Shown here: positions 55,963 to 62,488 of the stretch, one piece after another
Layout of the letters: every line of letters begins with the position of its first letter
How positions within the stretch are numbered: the stretch's first letter is position 1
Assembly: GCA_020854775.1 (NCBI GenBank)
Contig: JAHKLZ010000009.1
Location: 1 to 64,000 of the forward strand
DNA: 64,000 nucleotides
Reading direction: 5' to 3'
DNA from: Candidatus Woesearchaeota archaeon
GTDB taxonomy: Archaea; Nanobdellota; Nanobdellia; Woesearchaeales; 21-14-0-10-32-9
The notes under the pieces: generated by a model
Databases searched by the model: none
Seen by the model: the letters and a program-made list of their open reading frames with translations, nothing else
Told to the model about the DNA's origin: nothing
Position numbers and translations under genes: made by a program

Positions 55963-56037
55963 AAAATTTGCCTTTTAAGAAAGTGTTCAGTCATACCCTG
56001 TCATTTAGGTCGGGGTTGAACACTTTCGGCAAATTTT
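55963..56037. promoter_or_regulatory. Long double-stem hairpin after the nitroreductase gene (hairpin C)
   Basis: Outer stem AAAATTTGCC (55963-55972) with GGCAAATTTT (56028-56037); inner stem AAAGTGTTCA (55980-55989) with TGAACACTTT (56017-56026), plus ACCC/GGGT in a 27-nt loop. It begins at the nitroreductase stop codon, so it may be a terminator or RNA stability element for that mRNA, or part of a separate small RNA. Confidence 0.65.
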
Positions 56038-56624
56038 CATGATTTTGAAGTTTGCTTTGCGAATTCGCTTTCAAACACGAGTTCTTTTAACAGTTTTCTA
56101 TCTGAGTAAACTTCGCCTTTCTGCATTCTCTCAGGAATAACATCTAAAGATGCGTGTTTTCCGATTGCAATCATTGCCTCTATGTGATAGTCATCAGGTA
56201 AATTTATGACTTTTCTTGCTCGTTCATAATCAAATCCTGCCATTCCGTGAGTAATTAAACCATTCATAGATGCTTGCAATGCTAATGACATCCACGCAGA
56301 TCCTGTATCAAATGAGTGTGTTGGATTAGGTTCTCCTTCATCATTTGTTTTTTTAGATGCAACAATAACTAGTGCTGCTGCATTTTTGCTCCACATCTGG
56401 TTGAATTCCGCTAATAAATTAAAAAATTCGCTCCATGCAAGGGTTCCATTCATTGCATATATGAATCGCCATGGTTGGATGTTGCTTGCTGAAGGAGACC
56501 ATTTTGCTGCTTCAAATAGAGTCATTATTTCTTCTTTTGTTACATCTTTTGATATTGCTCTAGGCGACCATCTATTTAAAAAAATAGGATTTATGTTGTG
56601 TTCTGTTTTTCTTGTATTTTTCAT
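56037..56624 (-). CDS. Nitroreductase-family flavoprotein
   Basis: 195 aa. FMN-binding RWSPRAISKD and WSPSASNIQPWRF match the nitroreductase fold, and the C-terminal GKHASLDVIPERMQKG is its closing arm. Uses NAD(P)H and FMN to reduce nitro, quinone or flavin substrates. Ribosome site GAGGT lies 9 nt before the ATG, with the shared promoter block 38 nt upstream. Its stop sits at the base of hairpin C. It would consume NADPH made by the neighbouring operon (inference). Confidence 0.88.
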   Translation of the reverse strand: MKNTRKTEHNINPIFLNRWSPRAISKDVTKEEIMTLFEAAKWSPSASNIQPWRFIYAMNGTLAWSEFFNLLAEFNQMWSKNAAALVIVASKKTNDEGEPNPTHSFDTGSAWMSLALQASMNGLITHGMAGFDYERARKVINLPDDYHIEAMIAIGKHASLDVIPERMQKGEVYSDRKLLKELVFESEFAKQTSKS

Positions 56625-56661: not shown

Positions 56662-56687
56662 TTTATAATTAACCTTATATTATCAAA
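56662..56687 (-). promoter_or_regulatory. Shared promoter block, copy 2
   Basis: Second copy of the block at 55901-55926 (23 of 26 positions). It places a TATA element at the same distance from the nitroreductase start and indicates joint control with the microgene. Confidence 0.65.
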
Positions 56688-56736
56688 AGTTTCTTTTGAA
56701 TAAGGTTTTGTTTTAAAAAGAAGTTATTAATATATA

Positions 56737-56905: not shown

Positions 56906-58231
56906 TTACAAACTCGGCCCTGTACTTGTAGGAGCATATATTATTGGCTTAATGTCTTTATTTTTTATAGTTGATATTATTTTATCTGTTAATCGCCATG
57001 CAACATCTATTTCTTTATCACACATAAATATTTTTTTATTTCCAAGTAAACATTCTTTTAGTATGACTTCGTAGCCTTCAGGGGAGTTTGCTTTAAATTC
57101 GCATGTTGGGCAAAATGTCATTTTTACAGGAGTCAAATTCATTTTCTCTCCTAAAAGCGCTGTATTCATTGTAAGTTCAACATTTTGTAAAGGTTGAATG
57201 TGTAAAAATAATTTGTTTGGCGCAGAACCAATATCGCAGTATAAAGTGCATGGTTCTTTTTTGAACTCTATTTCTATGTATGCTTTTTTCTCTTTTAGCA
57301 TTTTTCCTGTTCGAAGAATCATCTCTGTACCTTTCCATCTTTTTGTTTTTGAGTGTAATTTTAATTCGACAAATGTTTCTGTTTTTGATTCTGGATTAAT
57401 GTTTTTGACTTCTTCTTGATATCCTGCGTATTGTCCTGTAATAATTTCTTCTTTAAAGAAAAGTTTTTGGATGGCTTCGATTTTAGATTTCTTGAAGTCA
57501 TTTTCATCTAGGCTTTTTGGAGGTTCCATGAGTATGAGTGATAATGTTTGAAGTAGATGATTTTGTACCATGTCTTTTATGGCGCCTGAATCGTCATAAT
57601 ATCCTAGTCTGTTACCAACACCTAGTTCTTCATCAACAACTATTTTTATTCTGTTTATAGATTTTGAATTCCACACACTTTCAAATAAAGGATTTGAAAA
57701 TCTTAGTCTTAAAATATTTTCTATTGTTTCTTTTGCTAAGTAATGGTCTGCTCTGTATATTTGTTCTTCTGTAAAATATTTTTTTAAAGAAGCATTCAAT
57801 TTTTTAGATGATTTTAGGTCATATCCGAATGGTTTTTCAGCGATTATTCTTGTGAATCCTTTGCCATTTATGCAACAAGAATGAATACTTTTTGCTATGG
57901 TTTCAAACAGCTTGTAACTTGTTGATAGATAATATAATCTCCCATCTATTGTTGTATCTTCTATGCTTGCTAGTTTATTTTTTAAGTTGTTTAATGATCC
58001 TTCCTTCTCTATGTCGGCGATAAAATAGTTTATAGTCATATTCTTTGCTATTTCTTTTTCTTGTAAGAGAAAATTTTTATATTCTTCTTCAGTATATGTT
58101 CTTCGTCCAATGCCAAGGACGTTTATCTTAAAATCAGCATTATTCTTCGCAATAGAATTTATGGCTGGGATAAGTTTTCTTTTAGCTAAATCTCCAGTTC
58201 CACCAAATATTATTATTGTATAGTTCTTCAT
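56906..58231 (-). CDS. zwf: Glucose-6-phosphate dehydrogenase
   Basis: First step of the oxidative pentose phosphate pathway: G6P to 6-phosphogluconolactone with NADP reduction. 441 aa, a little under the bacterial about 490. Rossmann motif FGGTGDLAKRKLIPA at 9-23 and active-site RADHYLAKE (the family R-I/A-D-H-Y-L-G/A-K-E, with the catalytic His nearby) are present. EKPFGYDL is also conserved. It is the third gene of gnd-pgl-zwf (36 nt after pgl). Bacterial-type Zwf is rare in archaea, so transfer is likely. Confidence 0.95.
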   Translation of the reverse strand: MKNYTIIIFGGTGDLAKRKLIPAINSIAKNNADFKINVLGIGRRTYTEEEYKNFLLQEKEIAKNMTINYFIADIEKEGSLNNLKNKLASIEDTTIDGRLYYLSTSYKLFETIAKSIHSCCINGKGFTRIIAEKPFGYDLKSSKKLNASLKKYFTEEQIYRADHYLAKETIENILRLRFSNPLFESVWNSKSINRIKIVVDEELGVGNRLGYYDDSGAIKDMVQNHLLQTLSLILMEPPKSLDENDFKKSKIEAIQKLFFKEEIITGQYAGYQEEVKNINPESKTETFVELKLHSKTKRWKGTEMILRTGKMLKEKKAYIEIEFKKEPCTLYCDIGSAPNKLFLHIQPLQNVELTMNTALLGEKMNLTPVKMTFCPTCEFKANSPEGYEVILKECLLGNKKIFMCDKEIDVAWRLTDKIISTIKNKDIKPIIYAPTSTGPSL

Positions 58232-58266: not shown

Positions 58267-58956
58267 TCATTGGTCTGTTAGGATTATTAACTCACTTATT
58301 TTTTGAAGTGTTTTTTCTGGTAACGACTTCTCAATTTGTTTATTGAGAAAATGTTTTAATGCATCTTTTTTTGATAATCCTGAAAAGATAACAATTCCAA
58401 GTTTTGTTTTAGATAGTAATGATGGTGTCGCTGTGAATCTTTCGCTTGGCGGTTTTGGTGAGTCATTAAAATAAGTGAATTTTTCATTTTCAGGGTAATT
58501 CTTGTTTGGAAATATTGCTCCGACGTGGTTGTCCTCTCCAGAGCTTAGTATCACGATATCAAAAAAGCCACCATACTTATTTAATTCTTTTTCATACTCG
58601 TTCTTTGCAGAATTAGCATCAAGACTAGTATTTACAGGATGTATGTTTTCTTCAGTAATTTGCCCTTTATTTATCAATTCATTTAATAAGTGTTTTCTTA
58701 AGAGATGATAATTACTTTCTTTATCTTCGTGCGGGACGTTGCGTTCATCAACTAAAAAAAAATGTACTTTAGTCCATTCTGGTAATTCCTTTTTTGCTAA
58801 TAATTCATATATTCTTGATACACTGCGACCTCCTACTAATCCAATTGTTATGAATTTTTTTTGTTCTCCTAATAATTTAAGTGCGGATACTATGATGTCT
58901 GCTCCTTTTTCAGATAGTTCGTTTTCATTATTAACTTTTATTAATTTCATCTTCAT
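58267..58956 (-). CDS. pgl: 6-Phosphogluconolactonase
   Basis: 229 aa from ATG 58956 (an ATG two codons later is also possible); the longer frame to 59010 overlaps gnd. SugarP-isomerase-like fold: IGLVGGRSVSRIYELL phosphate loop, FFLVDERNVPHEDKESNY and GEDNHVGAIFPN match 6-phosphogluconolactonase. It hydrolyses the product of Zwf. Lies between gnd and zwf. Confidence 0.9.
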   Translation of the reverse strand: MKMKLIKVNNENELSEKGADIIVSALKLLGEQKKFITIGLVGGRSVSRIYELLAKKELPEWTKVHFFLVDERNVPHEDKESNYHLLRKHLLNELINKGQITEENIHPVNTSLDANSAKNEYEKELNKYGGFFDIVILSSGEDNHVGAIFPNKNYPENEKFTYFNDSPKPPSERFTATPSLLSKTKLGIVIFSGLSKKDALKHFLNKQIEKSLPEKTLQKISELIILTDQ

Positions 58957-58969
58957 CAAGTTTTTCCTT

Positions 58970-59872
58970 TCATTTTTTCTTTGTAATGCCGTGGCCACCG
59001 AACTCGTCACGAATTACTGCGACGACTTTAGTTCCATAATTCTTTTTTGTTTCAGAGTCGTATCTTACTTGAAGGCTTTGTGCGATTACAGGTATTGATA
59101 CATTATGTTTTTTTGCATCTTCAACGGCCCATTTTCCCTCTCCGCTATTAGGAATAAATCCATCAACATCTTCAAGTCCGGGGTTGTGTTTTAATCCAAG
59201 ATTTGTCATTTCCATTAAGAAAGAGCGAATTATGCTTCCATTATTCCATACGTCTGTAAGTTTGATTTGATCAATATCTTGGAATGGTCCATTTTGTATC
59301 ATGTCGAGTCCTTCTCCTATTGCTTGCATCATACCATATTCTATGGCGTTATGAACCATTTTCACGTAGTGTCCTGCGCCATTATTTCCAAAATAGCCAT
59401 AACTGTTAGGGATGCACATGTCTTTTATTATTGGCTCTATCTTTTTGAAATTTTCTTTATCGCCGCCAACCATCATGCAATATCCTGTCTTTGCTGCTGC
59501 AAGGCCTCCTGATACGCCTACATCAACATAGTGTATATTTTTCTCTTTAAGCTCCTTTGCTCGTCTCATGGTTTCAGTATATTTACTATTTCCTCCATCT
59601 ATGATGATGTCTCCTGCATCTAAAAGCGGATTTATTTGAGTGATGACTTCATCAACTGATGTGTGTGGAATCATCAACCAAATTATTCTCGGTGCATCAA
59701 GTTTTTTTACCAAGTCATTATATGATTCTGAAGGAATTGCTCCTCTCTCTTCTGCGAGAAGTTTAACTTTGTCTTGTGATCTGTTAGCAACTACTACTTC
59801 GTGTCCTTTATCTAATAAGTGTTCTACCATGTGGTAGCCCATTTTTCCAAGTCCTATAAATCCTATTTTCAT
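58970..59872 (-). CDS. gnd: 6-Phosphogluconate dehydrogenase (decarboxylating), short type
   Basis: About 300 aa, the short NAD-type 6PGDH. Rossmann GFIGLGKMGYHM, cofactor loop ANRSQDK (no Lys/Arg-Arg pair typical of strict NADP, so NAD preference is likely), GGNSKYTETMRRAKE, VGVSGGLAAAKTGYCM and catalytic Lys-Asn KMVHNAIEYG. Start is ATG 59872 with AGGTGA 6 nt upstream; TTG/ATG at 59890 is too far. First gene of gnd-pgl-zwf. Confidence 0.93.
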   Translation of the reverse strand: MKIGFIGLGKMGYHMVEHLLDKGHEVVVANRSQDKVKLLAEERGAIPSESYNDLVKKLDAPRIIWLMIPHTSVDEVITQINPLLDAGDIIIDGGNSKYTETMRRAKELKEKNIHYVDVGVSGGLAAAKTGYCMMVGGDKENFKKIEPIIKDMCIPNSYGYFGNNGAGHYVKMVHNAIEYGMMQAIGEGLDMIQNGPFQDIDQIKLTDVWNNGSIIRSFLMEMTNLGLKHNPGLEDVDGFIPNSGEGKWAVEDAKKHNVSIPVIAQSLQVRYDSETKKNYGTKVVAVIRDEFGGHGITKKK

Positions 59873-59940
59873 TTTTTTCACCTGCGACATTTTTTTAAAT
59901 TTTAAACAAATTATTCTTAATTAAATTATCTTTAACTATT

Positions 59941-60582
59941 TTATTTATTATTCTTATTCACATAGCCTTTTAATAATAATTTGCCCATAGAAGATAATTT
60001 TATGTAAAGATTCTTGTTTACTGATTTCGTGTCGACTAATCTATGATACTTTAGGCCTTTATACTTATCCGTTCCATTTATATGATAAGATAATAAAGAT
60101 ATTGACATCTTTAATTTTTTTGCAACATCATTTAATGATTGATATTCTTCTTTATTTAATTCATTTAATATCTTCATCTTTATAGGGGTGATTTCATTAT
60201 AATAAGATAATTTCATTATAGGAAGTAAAACAATCATCTCTCCTGCAACATCGAATGCTTTAAGTCCATTTGCATATGATGCGCTAATTGATGCGCAAGT
60301 AGTTGTGTGATCTCCTGCGCCGACGTTAACTATTAATTGGTCGTTAGGATAAATTTGGCAAATGTCTGCGAATATTTCAAATACGCTCTCTAGCGGGTTT
60401 CCTTTTATTTGTTTTATCTCTGATGGGACTGTGAATTCAGCTAATTTACTTGATGTTTTTTTTGCTACATCAAATAATTCTGGTGTTGTTATTAAGATGA
60501 CTTTTTTTGTTGGAAATTCTTTCATGCCGATAAATAAAGGTTTCATGTTTCGTCCAACAGGTGCAATTAATATGTGGCTCAT
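59941..60582 (-). CDS. CARF-domain winged-helix regulator (Csa3/HFX_2341-like)
   Basis: 213 aa. Residues 1-125 form a Rossmann-like CARF domain: PVGRNMKPL at the first loop and VNVGAGDHTTTCAS in the position of the ligand-binding TGGT-like loop. Residues about 135-205 form a winged helix (LNDVAKKLKMSISLLSYHI). CARF proteins bind cyclic oligoadenylates or related nucleotides; here there is no CRISPR. It is 68 nt upstream of gnd and co-directional, so it may control the pentose phosphate operon. A TATATATAC box and GATAAT lie upstream. Confidence 0.72.
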   Translation of the reverse strand: MSHILIAPVGRNMKPLFIGMKEFPTKKVILITTPELFDVAKKTSSKLAEFTVPSEIKQIKGNPLESVFEIFADICQIYPNDQLIVNVGAGDHTTTCASISASYANGLKAFDVAGEMIVLLPIMKLSYYNEITPIKMKILNELNKEEYQSLNDVAKKLKMSISLLSYHINGTDKYKGLKYHRLVDTKSVNKNLYIKLSSMGKLLLKGYVNKNNK

Positions 60583-60736
60583 AAATATATAGAAAGTAAG
60601 AATAGTATATATACTTTGTTTTTATTATCAAAACAAACTTTTGAAGAAATAAAGTAAGGTTTAAGTAGTTTGTAAGCTTTCTTAATTTATCGAAACAATA
60701 TTTATTACATTATTTATTAAAAAAAGGTGATTTAAA

Positions 60737-61324
60737 ATGGAAAATAATAATATGAAAGTATTAATTTTTTATGGCTCAGTTAGAGAAACCAGACAAGGAA
60801 TAAACGCTGCAAGATTCATTGAAAATAAAATAAAAGAGAGAAAAATAAATGTTGAATTGATAGATCCTTTGGTTTATAATTTGCCGATGCTTGATAAAAT
60901 GCACAAAGAATACACAAAAGATAACGTTCCAAAAAAAATGGATGAACTATCAAAAAAAATACTTGATGCGGACGGGTTCATAATAGTAACTGGGGAGTAT
61001 AATCACAGCATCCCTCCTGCACTTAAGAACATGCTCGATCACTATCAAAGAGAGTATAATTTTAAGCCAAGTGCGATTGTAAGTTACTCTGCTGGAAGCT
61101 TTGGAGGTGTTAGATCCGCAGTTCATCTTCGAGCAATACTCGGCGAGCTCGGAATGTCATCAATACCATCTATGTTTCCTGTGCCTTTCGTGCAAGACGC
61201 ATTCACAGAAGAGGGTGTGCCTATAGATGAAAAATATAATTCGAGAATAAAAAGATTCCTTGATGAATTTGAATGGTATTTAAAAGCGCTTAAAGAACAA
61301 AGACTAAAAGGTACACCTTACTAA
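60737..61324 (+). CDS. NADPH-dependent FMN reductase
   Basis: 195 aa flavodoxin-like protein. FMN loop FYGSVRETRQGINA, GEYNHSIPPALKNMLDHYQ and YSAGSFGGVRSA match the NADPH-dependent FMN reductase family (SsuE/ArsH-related). Ribosome site AGGTGA lies 7 nt before the ATG. Divergent from the CARF regulator. With the nitroreductase it would use NADPH made by Zwf (inference). Last gene before the att-like tRNA remnant. Confidence 0.92.
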   Translation: MENNNMKVLIFYGSVRETRQGINAARFIENKIKERKINVELIDPLVYNLPMLDKMHKEYTKDNVPKKMDELSKKILDADGFIIVTGEYNHSIPPALKNMLDHYQREYNFKPSAIVSYSAGSFGGVRSAVHLRAILGELGMSSIPSMFPVPFVQDAFTEEGVPIDEKYNSRIKRFLDEFEWYLKALKEQRLKGTPY

Positions 61325-61453: not shown

Positions 61454-62488
61454 ATGGTTCCTGTTGTTTTTTTCTCAGAGGTTTCTGTTTCTGATTCTTC
61501 TGATAAGATTAATGAAGTTGTTTATACTTTGTTATCTGAATTTGTCAGATTTAAGGATTTTGAATTAGGAAAGTGTGTTCCTTTAAAGGTTACTTTCGGG
61601 GAGTCTGGTAATAAGACTTTTATTCCTGCTGGTTGGATGCTTGGTGCAATTGATTTTTTGGCTGAGAAAAAAATTGAGAGTGCTTTCATGGAGACTAATG
61701 TTTTGTATAGGGGTGAACGTACTAATAGAAAGGATCATGTTTCTTTGGCTATGAGGCATGGTTTTACTAGATTGCCTGTGGTGATTGCTGATGGTGAACT
61801 CGGTGAGGCTTATGAGTATGTTAAGATTAAAGGAAAGCATTTTAGTAAGTGTATGATTGCTAAGGGTGTTGTTGATGAATCTCAATTATTAGTTGTTAGT
61901 CATTTTAAGGGTCATGTTCTTGCGGGTTTTGGGGGTGCTATTAAGCAACTTGGGATGGGTTGTGCTTCTCGTGGGGGTAAGCTTGCTCAGCATATGGGTT
62001 CTGCTCCTATTGTTAATTCTTTGACGTGTAAGAAGTGTAATATGTGTGTTGAGAAGTGTCCTGTTCATGCTATTAGTATGAGTAGTTTTTCTGCGCGTAT
62101 TGATTCAAAAAAATGTATTGGTTGCGCTGCTTGTATAGCTGTTTGTCCTTTTAATGTTATTAAAATTAATTGGGTTGCGAGTCTTGTTAATAATTTTTCT
62201 GAGCGCTTAGTAGAGTATGCTTTTGCTTCTCAGCTTAATAAGAAGAATATTTATTTAACTTACGCTGTTAATATGACTAAGGATTGTGATTGTATTGGTA
62301 AGGAGATGAAACCTTTGATTGATGATTTGGGTGTGTTTGTTTCTGATGATCCTGTTGCTTGTGATCGTGCAATTCTTGATTTGTTGAAATTGCGTGAGGG
62401 TAAAAATGTTTTTTCTGAGAAGAATACTTTTTTGCATGCTGATAAGATTGGTTTTGGTTCTCAGGAGTATGTGTTGAAGAAGTTATGA
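61454..62488 (+). CDS. DUF362 / ferredoxin protein, 2x[4Fe-4S]
   Basis: 344 aa. N-terminal DUF362 domain (about 1-185, with FESAFMETNVLYRGERTNRK-type elements), then two ferredoxin clusters: CKKCNMCVEKCPVHAI and CIGCAACIAVCPFNVI. Leaderless: TTTTATATAT is about 28 nt before the ATG. Likely a redox enzyme of the DUF362 family with unknown substrate. Convergent and overlapping by 6 nt with the antiporter gene. Confidence 0.85.
   Translation: MVPVVFFSEVSVSDSSDKINEVVYTLLSEFVRFKDFELGKCVPLKVTFGESGNKTFIPAGWMLGAIDFLAEKKIESAFMETNVLYRGERTNRKDHVSLAMRHGFTRLPVVIADGELGEAYEYVKIKGKHFSKCMIAKGVVDESQLLVVSHFKGHVLAGFGGAIKQLGMGCASRGGKLAQHMGSAPIVNSLTCKKCNMCVEKCPVHAISMSSFSARIDSKKCIGCAACIAVCPFNVIKINWVASLVNNFSERLVEYAFASQLNKKNIYLTYAVNMTKDCDCIGKEMKPLIDDLGVFVSDDPVACDRAILDLLKLREGKNVFSEKNTFLHADKIGFGSQEYVLKKL

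Follow-up and report, generated by a model that had tools for sequence, protein, structure and literature searches.

Within the window (the whole 64,000-nucleotide stretch of DNA that was analysed, with all positions counted from its first letter) an open reading frame at 59941-60582 had been put forward in the original prediction as encoding a CARF-like fold with an HTH in the layout of Csa3. The reading frame is real and begins with an ATG start codon, with the qualification that it lies on the minus strand. The gene and its domains are:

59941-60582, minus strand: CARF-wHTH transcriptional regulator (HFX_2341-like), 213 aa, assigned from the open reading frame, HMM matches, structural model and Foldseek
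60208-60582, minus strand: CARF domain, about residues 1-125, with a Rossmann-like strand/helix pattern (PF19810 at residues 4-113; Foldseek matches to Csa3, Can2 and Cam1)
59944-60207, minus strand: linker and winged HTH, about residues 126-213 (PF13412 at residues 133-169)

The architecture of an N-terminal CARF domain followed by a C-terminal wHTH is confirmed by the profile matches and by the predicted structure. In Pfam, the N-terminal part matches PF19810 (HFX_2341_N) with E=1.1e-7 and 32.7 bits against a gathering cut-off of 30, and the same profile matches 76 of the 76 sequences of the family alignment at E<=1e-3, while the C-terminal match to PF13412 has E=7.3e-6. Also the CARF3 model of PADLOC matches over the whole length of the protein (E=1.1e-20). 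It may be noted that, as PADLOC CARF models match this protein, a CARF-HMM match alone is no proof of defence. An AlphaFold2 model was built from the 76-sequence alignment with a mean pLDDT of 89.8, and DSSP assigned to it wHTH helices at residues 133-141, 150-157 and 161-169 and wing strands at 183-196. When this model was compared with the PDB by Foldseek, ranks 1-4 were taken by Csa3 chains (6wxq, 2wte, 6w11; E 2e-8 to 4e-7) and the next structural matches were Can2, Cam1, Card1 and Csm6. The CARF domain alone superposes on Cam1 at 2.7-2.9 Å and the whole protein on Csa3 at an rmsd of 12-13 Å, which we read as a different domain placement. The profiles and the model with its top matches to Csa3 thus bear out the layout first proposed, and the structural check of the N-terminal domain finds CARF folds (Csa3, Can2, Cam1) as its matches.

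The regulator gene is the first of an operon with the order CARF-gnd-pgl-zwf, all on the same strand, and a flavin enzyme is encoded on either side:

58970-59890, minus strand: gnd, 6-phosphogluconate dehydrogenase, 50 bp after CARF (Pfam 6PGDH)
58267-59010, minus strand: pgl, 6-phosphogluconolactonase, overlapping the end of gnd as called, though the start may be further in (Pfam)
56906-58231, minus strand: zwf, glucose-6-phosphate dehydrogenase, after a 35 bp gap from pgl (Pfam G6PDH)
56037-56624, minus strand: nitroreductase-family flavoprotein, after zwf, a predicted regulon member (Pfam)
60737-61324, plus strand: NADPH-dependent FMN reductase, divergent, 154 bp from CARF and sharing the region of O1 (see below; Pfam)

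The neighbours that had been named for this gene, gnd-pgl-zwf and the FMN reductase, were each recovered by Pfam. Further out, a DUF362 protein with 4Fe-4S motifs (61454-62488) is found downstream of the FMN reductase, and a PLP-dependent decarboxylase (PF00282; 53834-55441) adjoins the cluster.

In most of the close orthologues the start codon is preceded, at -62 to -66, by a 17-bp palindrome, TCAAAA-N5-TTTTGA, which is predicted here to be the operator. Two such sites and a promoter-like element are given for the window:

60628-60644, no strand: predicted operator O1, TCAAAACAAACTTTTGA, 62 bp before CARF, in the divergent CARF/FMN-reductase intergenic region
60605-60614, minus strand: TATA-like stretch GTATATATAC, proposed from the sequence, 13 bp downstream of O1 as read towards CARF
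56683-56699, no strand: predicted operator O2, TCAAAAGTTTCTTTTGA, 59-75 bp before the nitroreductase start codon

A footprint had been expected near 59880-59940, where no such palindrome is present; the predicted operator is O1 instead. Among the 14 orthologues of the window's subgroup, the form TCAAAAC-N3-GTTTTGA occurs with at most one mismatch in 6 and with two mismatches in 2 more, and for 7 of the 14 loci no equally good palindrome was obtained in 300 shuffles. On searching these 14 loci and three more for TCAAAA-N5-TTTTGA at one mismatch we found 21 matches, 12 of them outside ORFs, as opposed to 2 matches (0 outside ORFs) for the reversed-pattern control in the same loci. The exact arms are present 4 times in the 1.18-Mb genome, 2 inside ORFs and 2 intergenic, the latter being O1 and O2. 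The regulator's own cluster therefore contains both intergenic exact-arm sites of the 1.18 Mb, no more than 4 kb apart, which is hard to attribute to chance. The exact-arm operator is AT-rich, and at one mismatch a control pattern gives 22 hits versus 35; the weaker operator-like matches in the genome, nearly all within ORFs, were rejected as background. Searching 18 zwf loci that have no nearby CARF (192 kb) gave no intergenic site at <=1 mismatch. In another subgroup a less uniform palindrome, TTAAAC-N4-GTTT(T)AA, is seen upstream of CARF (L096, L097, L100, L101, L104 and L106), between CARF and divergent thioredoxin/CcdA genes.

The neighbours of the orthologues across the order were compared at 78 loci. 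The commonest are TlpA/ResA-type thioredoxins (22), CcdA (14) and FAD/NAD(P) disulfide-reductase-type enzymes (11), with DsbA, DoxX and glutaredoxin as further redox-class neighbours. These classes make up 22.5% of the genes within 3 positions of the 78 orthologues versus 6.1% at >=6 positions (OR 4.5, p=3.6e-13), an enrichment to which related genomes from a single family contribute in part. Proteins of the TlpA/thioredoxin fold are common. As the redox classes were picked after inspecting the neighbours of the 78 loci, they were fixed and then tested on 26 further loci outside the class definition, for which they represent 21% of the near genes versus 8% of the far ones (p=0.0012). On the 74-member tree the TlpA/CcdA neighbourhood changes 11 times, with at least 8 of the changes forced by well-supported branches, and 30 of its 74 members lack any redox-class gene at a distance of up to 3 positions.

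Within the CARF domain two elements stand close together:

60307-60327, minus strand: beta4-alpha4 loop, N86-H92, NVGAGDH, equivalent of the canonical CARF GGTK loop and of the Csa3 motif-2 loop (8bao profile match; DSSP; family alignment)
60295-60297, minus strand: codon of Cys96, a near-invariant family cysteine (70 of 74 members), in the first turns of helix 92-105

The family consensus of the loop is N-V-A-T-G-D-R with variants TGD(R/K/H), the window having AGDH, and it aligns with the GGTK loop of Can2. The loop glycine G90 is kept in 67 of the 74 members and the residue after it is Asp in 62 of 74; R92 is found in 42 of 74 and is H in the window. In other CARFs this loop binds cyclic oligoadenylate, and Cys96 follows it by one helical turn. 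The Arg that ends the loop in Csa3 touches a phosphate of cA4 and sits in the dimer interface (PMC8844856). Cys96 is four residues past the equivalent of this Arg and would thus face the pocket or the dimer axis. A sister CARF-wHTH family of the same order (L056, L057, L058 and L059; 26-29% identity) is without Cys96, its loop stays basic (NITSGRKTKA or DITAGRKTKA, i.e. SGRK or AGRK), and no redox-class neighbour was present in the four loci seen. About 40 members outside the window's subgroup also have a Cys-Cys just before the wHTH helices. The window protein is without this pair and so has one near-invariant Cys only, although a Cys75 is common to it and some close relatives. Taken together, the neighbours across the order and the near-invariant cysteine suggest thiol/disulfide redox state as the signal no less than they do a nucleotide.

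The reading we favour, and judge to be reasonably probable, is that of an autoregulated CARF-wHTH redox regulator of NADPH supply and use, for which a thiol/disulfide or NADPH signal acting via Cys96 is most likely. A presumed CARF-wHTH dimer would have been co-opted from the CRISPR-linked Csa3-like fold to redox homeostasis, and would bind the O1 and O2 palindromes just upstream of TATA-like elements. The predicted regulon consists of its own operon CARF-gnd-pgl-zwf (NADPH production) together with the FMN reductase and the nitroreductase (NAD(P)H use). The signal would be the thiol/disulfide or NADP(H) state, with Cys96 as the candidate switch behind the former cyclic-oligonucleotide loop, and oxidation or modification of this residue may shift the wHTH pair on the DNA. 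As O1 is upstream of the TATA-like stretch, which is the activating side in SurR, the analogy would favour activation of CARF-gnd-pgl-zwf; SurR represses if bound downstream of the TATA box (PMC12162507).

The same regulator and operator may also be read with a different sensor, whereby Cys96 is structural only and the ligand of the CARF domain is NADP+/NADPH, a sugar phosphate or a nucleotide second messenger such as c-di-AMP. The protein would then be a metabolite-sensing switch for NADPH supply, much as the original prediction had supposed. CARFs are nucleotide-binding Rossmann-like domains, the phosphate-loop glycine G90 and to a lesser extent R92 are kept in the proportions given above, the operon yields NADPH, and c-di-AMP is the proposed ligand of HFX_2341 (PMC11434293). 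Yet the Asp that follows the loop glycine, at a position that is hydrophobic in Csa3, is unfavourable for phosphates, and the neighbours order-wide are mainly thiol/disulfide proteins and not NADP enzymes. We consider a ligand of this kind possible but rather unlikely.

The redox regulator of NADPH supply that we prefer draws further on the recurrence of the OPPP linkage. A search for CARF-wHTH with gnd/zwf elsewhere, as originally suggested, found the combination in G026 and G107. In the first, a genome of another family, the four genes run the same way as CARF>pgl>gnd>zwf, the CARF having 57% protein identity and the internal order being reshuffled; the same gene set in a different order argues for functional linkage rather than for shared ancestry of a single locus. 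In G107, zwf and gnd adjoin CARF and are convergent to it. Only three orthologues adjoin OPPP genes, which amounts to three separate changes on the 74-member tree. Two other candidates were rejected, namely the gnd-like gene of L098, a more distant paralogue with 32% identity, and L103, where a true 6PGDH is present, yet four genes off. The G026 locus also has a peroxiredoxin-like ORF (L031:12450-12908; Bcp-like by eye) convergent to zwf. Together, zwf and CARF are found in 26 genomes versus 15.4 expected from their totals, with relatedness ignored. G007, which is related to the window's family and has no CARF, encodes an FMN reductase with 62% identity to that of the window directly before gnd-pgl-zwf (L148:470-4025); the link between reductase and pathway thus does not depend on CARF.

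It could be held that the OPPP adjacency is accidental, with the regulator controlling only itself and remote genes and CARF having been put before gnd-pgl-zwf by recent transfer, since gnd-pgl-zwf is kept without CARF in the congeners and family members of the window genome and other neighbours are present in most orthologues. This is improbable in view of the CARF and OPPP operon found again in a second family, the operator placed before a co-directional operon with the other intergenic copy of exact arms before the nitroreductase of the same cluster, and the G007 arrangement, which marks the cluster as a functional unit even without CARF. The second-family operon and the conserved operator before CARF likewise support the initial suggestion that the protein controls the sugar-phosphate operon.

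CRISPR absence was judged genome-wide from the profiles of Cas1 (PF01867) and the Cas10 palm domain (PF22335), neither of which has a match in the window's assembly, listed as 100% complete. The remark of the original prediction that no CRISPR was in sight thus extends from the neighbourhood to the genome for these two profiles, and the type III system that it named as contrary evidence gave no Cas1/Cas10 match. Among the 353 genomes of the order, Cas1 is present in 15, the Cas10 palm domain in 4 (only 2 above the cut-off) and the CARF family in 79. Cas1 is found in 3 of the 79 CARF-positive and 12 of the 274 CARF-negative genomes, i.e. there is no association order-wide, and Cas10 in 0 of the 79. 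Therefore type III signalling is not the usual partner of the CARF family. The congeners and family members of the window genome are without the CARF gene, and this patchy presence reflects transfer or loss; the CARF relatives are named Candidatus Woesearchaeota, Nanoarchaeota and Aenigmatarchaeota, which places the window in a DPANN archaeon from a Woesearchaeota-type order. A Csa3-type antiviral regulator answering cyclic oligoadenylate, with the metabolic genes belonging to a defence response, is very improbable despite cA4-bound Csa3 being the top structural match and a weak match to TIGR01884 (20.1 bits), as the cut-off of that model is 60.2 bits, Cas10 is absent from the window genome and all CARF-positive genomes of the order, and F10 and F14 of Csa3 motif 1 are D/R11 and A/P15 here (by beta1-alpha1 loop position).

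With no detectable type III CRISPR, NADPH-making neighbours, disulfide genes near the relatives and a predicted DNA site of its own, the protein probably serves as a switch in redox control and not in antiviral defence. For the family at large we offer a more tentative view, plausible but short of probable: in this widespread DPANN CARF family the cyclic-oligonucleotide pocket may have been rebuilt round a conserved Cys as a redox sensor, controlling NADPH and extracytoplasmic disulfide chemistry free of CRISPR. The usual view of CARF domains is that they sense cyclic oligonucleotides in defence. If the redox reading is true, the fold would serve core redox control as well, in a family present in 79 of 353 genomes with no CRISPR link. 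Woesearchaeota-type archaea are mostly uncultured, and the reading would give them a predicted redox circuit with named DNA sites and one residue.

Known systems share parts of this arrangement. MM_0565 of Methanosarcina mazei (PMC7465815) is an archaeal CARF-wHTH protein, dimeric and DNA-binding, but its gene belongs to a type I-B CRISPR locus and its targets are CRISPR leaders. Csa3 (Saccharolobus solfataricus Sso1445; PDB 2wte, 6wxq, 6w11) has the same CARF and wHTH fold and the phosphate-loop glycine, whereas the window protein has a loop of the TGD(R/K/H) type followed by Cys96 and is without cas genes; with these genes absent and TIGR01884 below its cut-off, membership in Csa3 was rejected. 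Loss of F10 and F14 abolishes cA4 binding in Csa3 (PMC8844856), and the cA4 motif 1, Phi-G-F-(N/D)-x-z-F (PMC8844856), is replaced by V-G-D-N-x-x-A in the family and V-G-R-N-M-K-P in the window, as compared by loop position and not by superposition. In motif 2 (small-small-G-Phi-R) the G is kept, Phi is changed to D, and R is the partly conserved residue 92 described above.

SurR (Thermococcales) and MsvR (methanogens) are archaeal thiol redox regulators (PMC7278568, PMC12162507), and the likeness we propose by analogy is that of a cysteine-switched wHTH which would control its own promoter and redox/NADPH-linked genes. The switch of SurR is a CxxC in the N-terminal wHTH (PMC12162507). The window protein is without CxxC and reaches 12.5 bits with the MsvR model against a cut-off of 220. 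Many relatives have their Cys-Cys pair roughly where SurR has its CxxC, which is a lead and not a homology claim; a PDB sequence search with a relative's wHTH gave no SurR match and one chance match, and SurR homology was rejected. SurR and MsvR are not known to carry a CARF domain, and the sensor is not homologous.

The closest precedent is HFX_2341 (Crr), a CARF-wHTH regulator from Haloferax mediterranei that acts outside CRISPR and has effects on metabolism, including on carbohydrate and transport genes (PMC11434293). It is alike in having a PF19810 CARF-wHTH, no genomic CRISPR association and homologues in CRISPR-free species (PMC11434293). It differs in its length of 308 aa, as opposed to about 213 aa in the window family, and in acting as a global repressor in a haloarchaeon, with cas genes among those affected (PMC11434293). 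No Cys-centred redox link or defined operator is reported for it, whereas the window family has redox neighbours, Cys96 and the palindrome. Of the CRISPR-independent CARF circuit originally envisaged, the independence therefore stands (no Cas1/Cas10), but the kind is not new. A literature search, which did not cover the 2020 CARF classification, found no paper on CARF with Woesearchaeota or on a CARF domain with thioredoxin. A CRISPR-independent CARF-wHTH metabolic regulator is thus known already from HFX_2341 (PMC11434293), and what is new is the redox association, Cys96, the operator and the predicted regulon in Woesearchaeota-type archaea.
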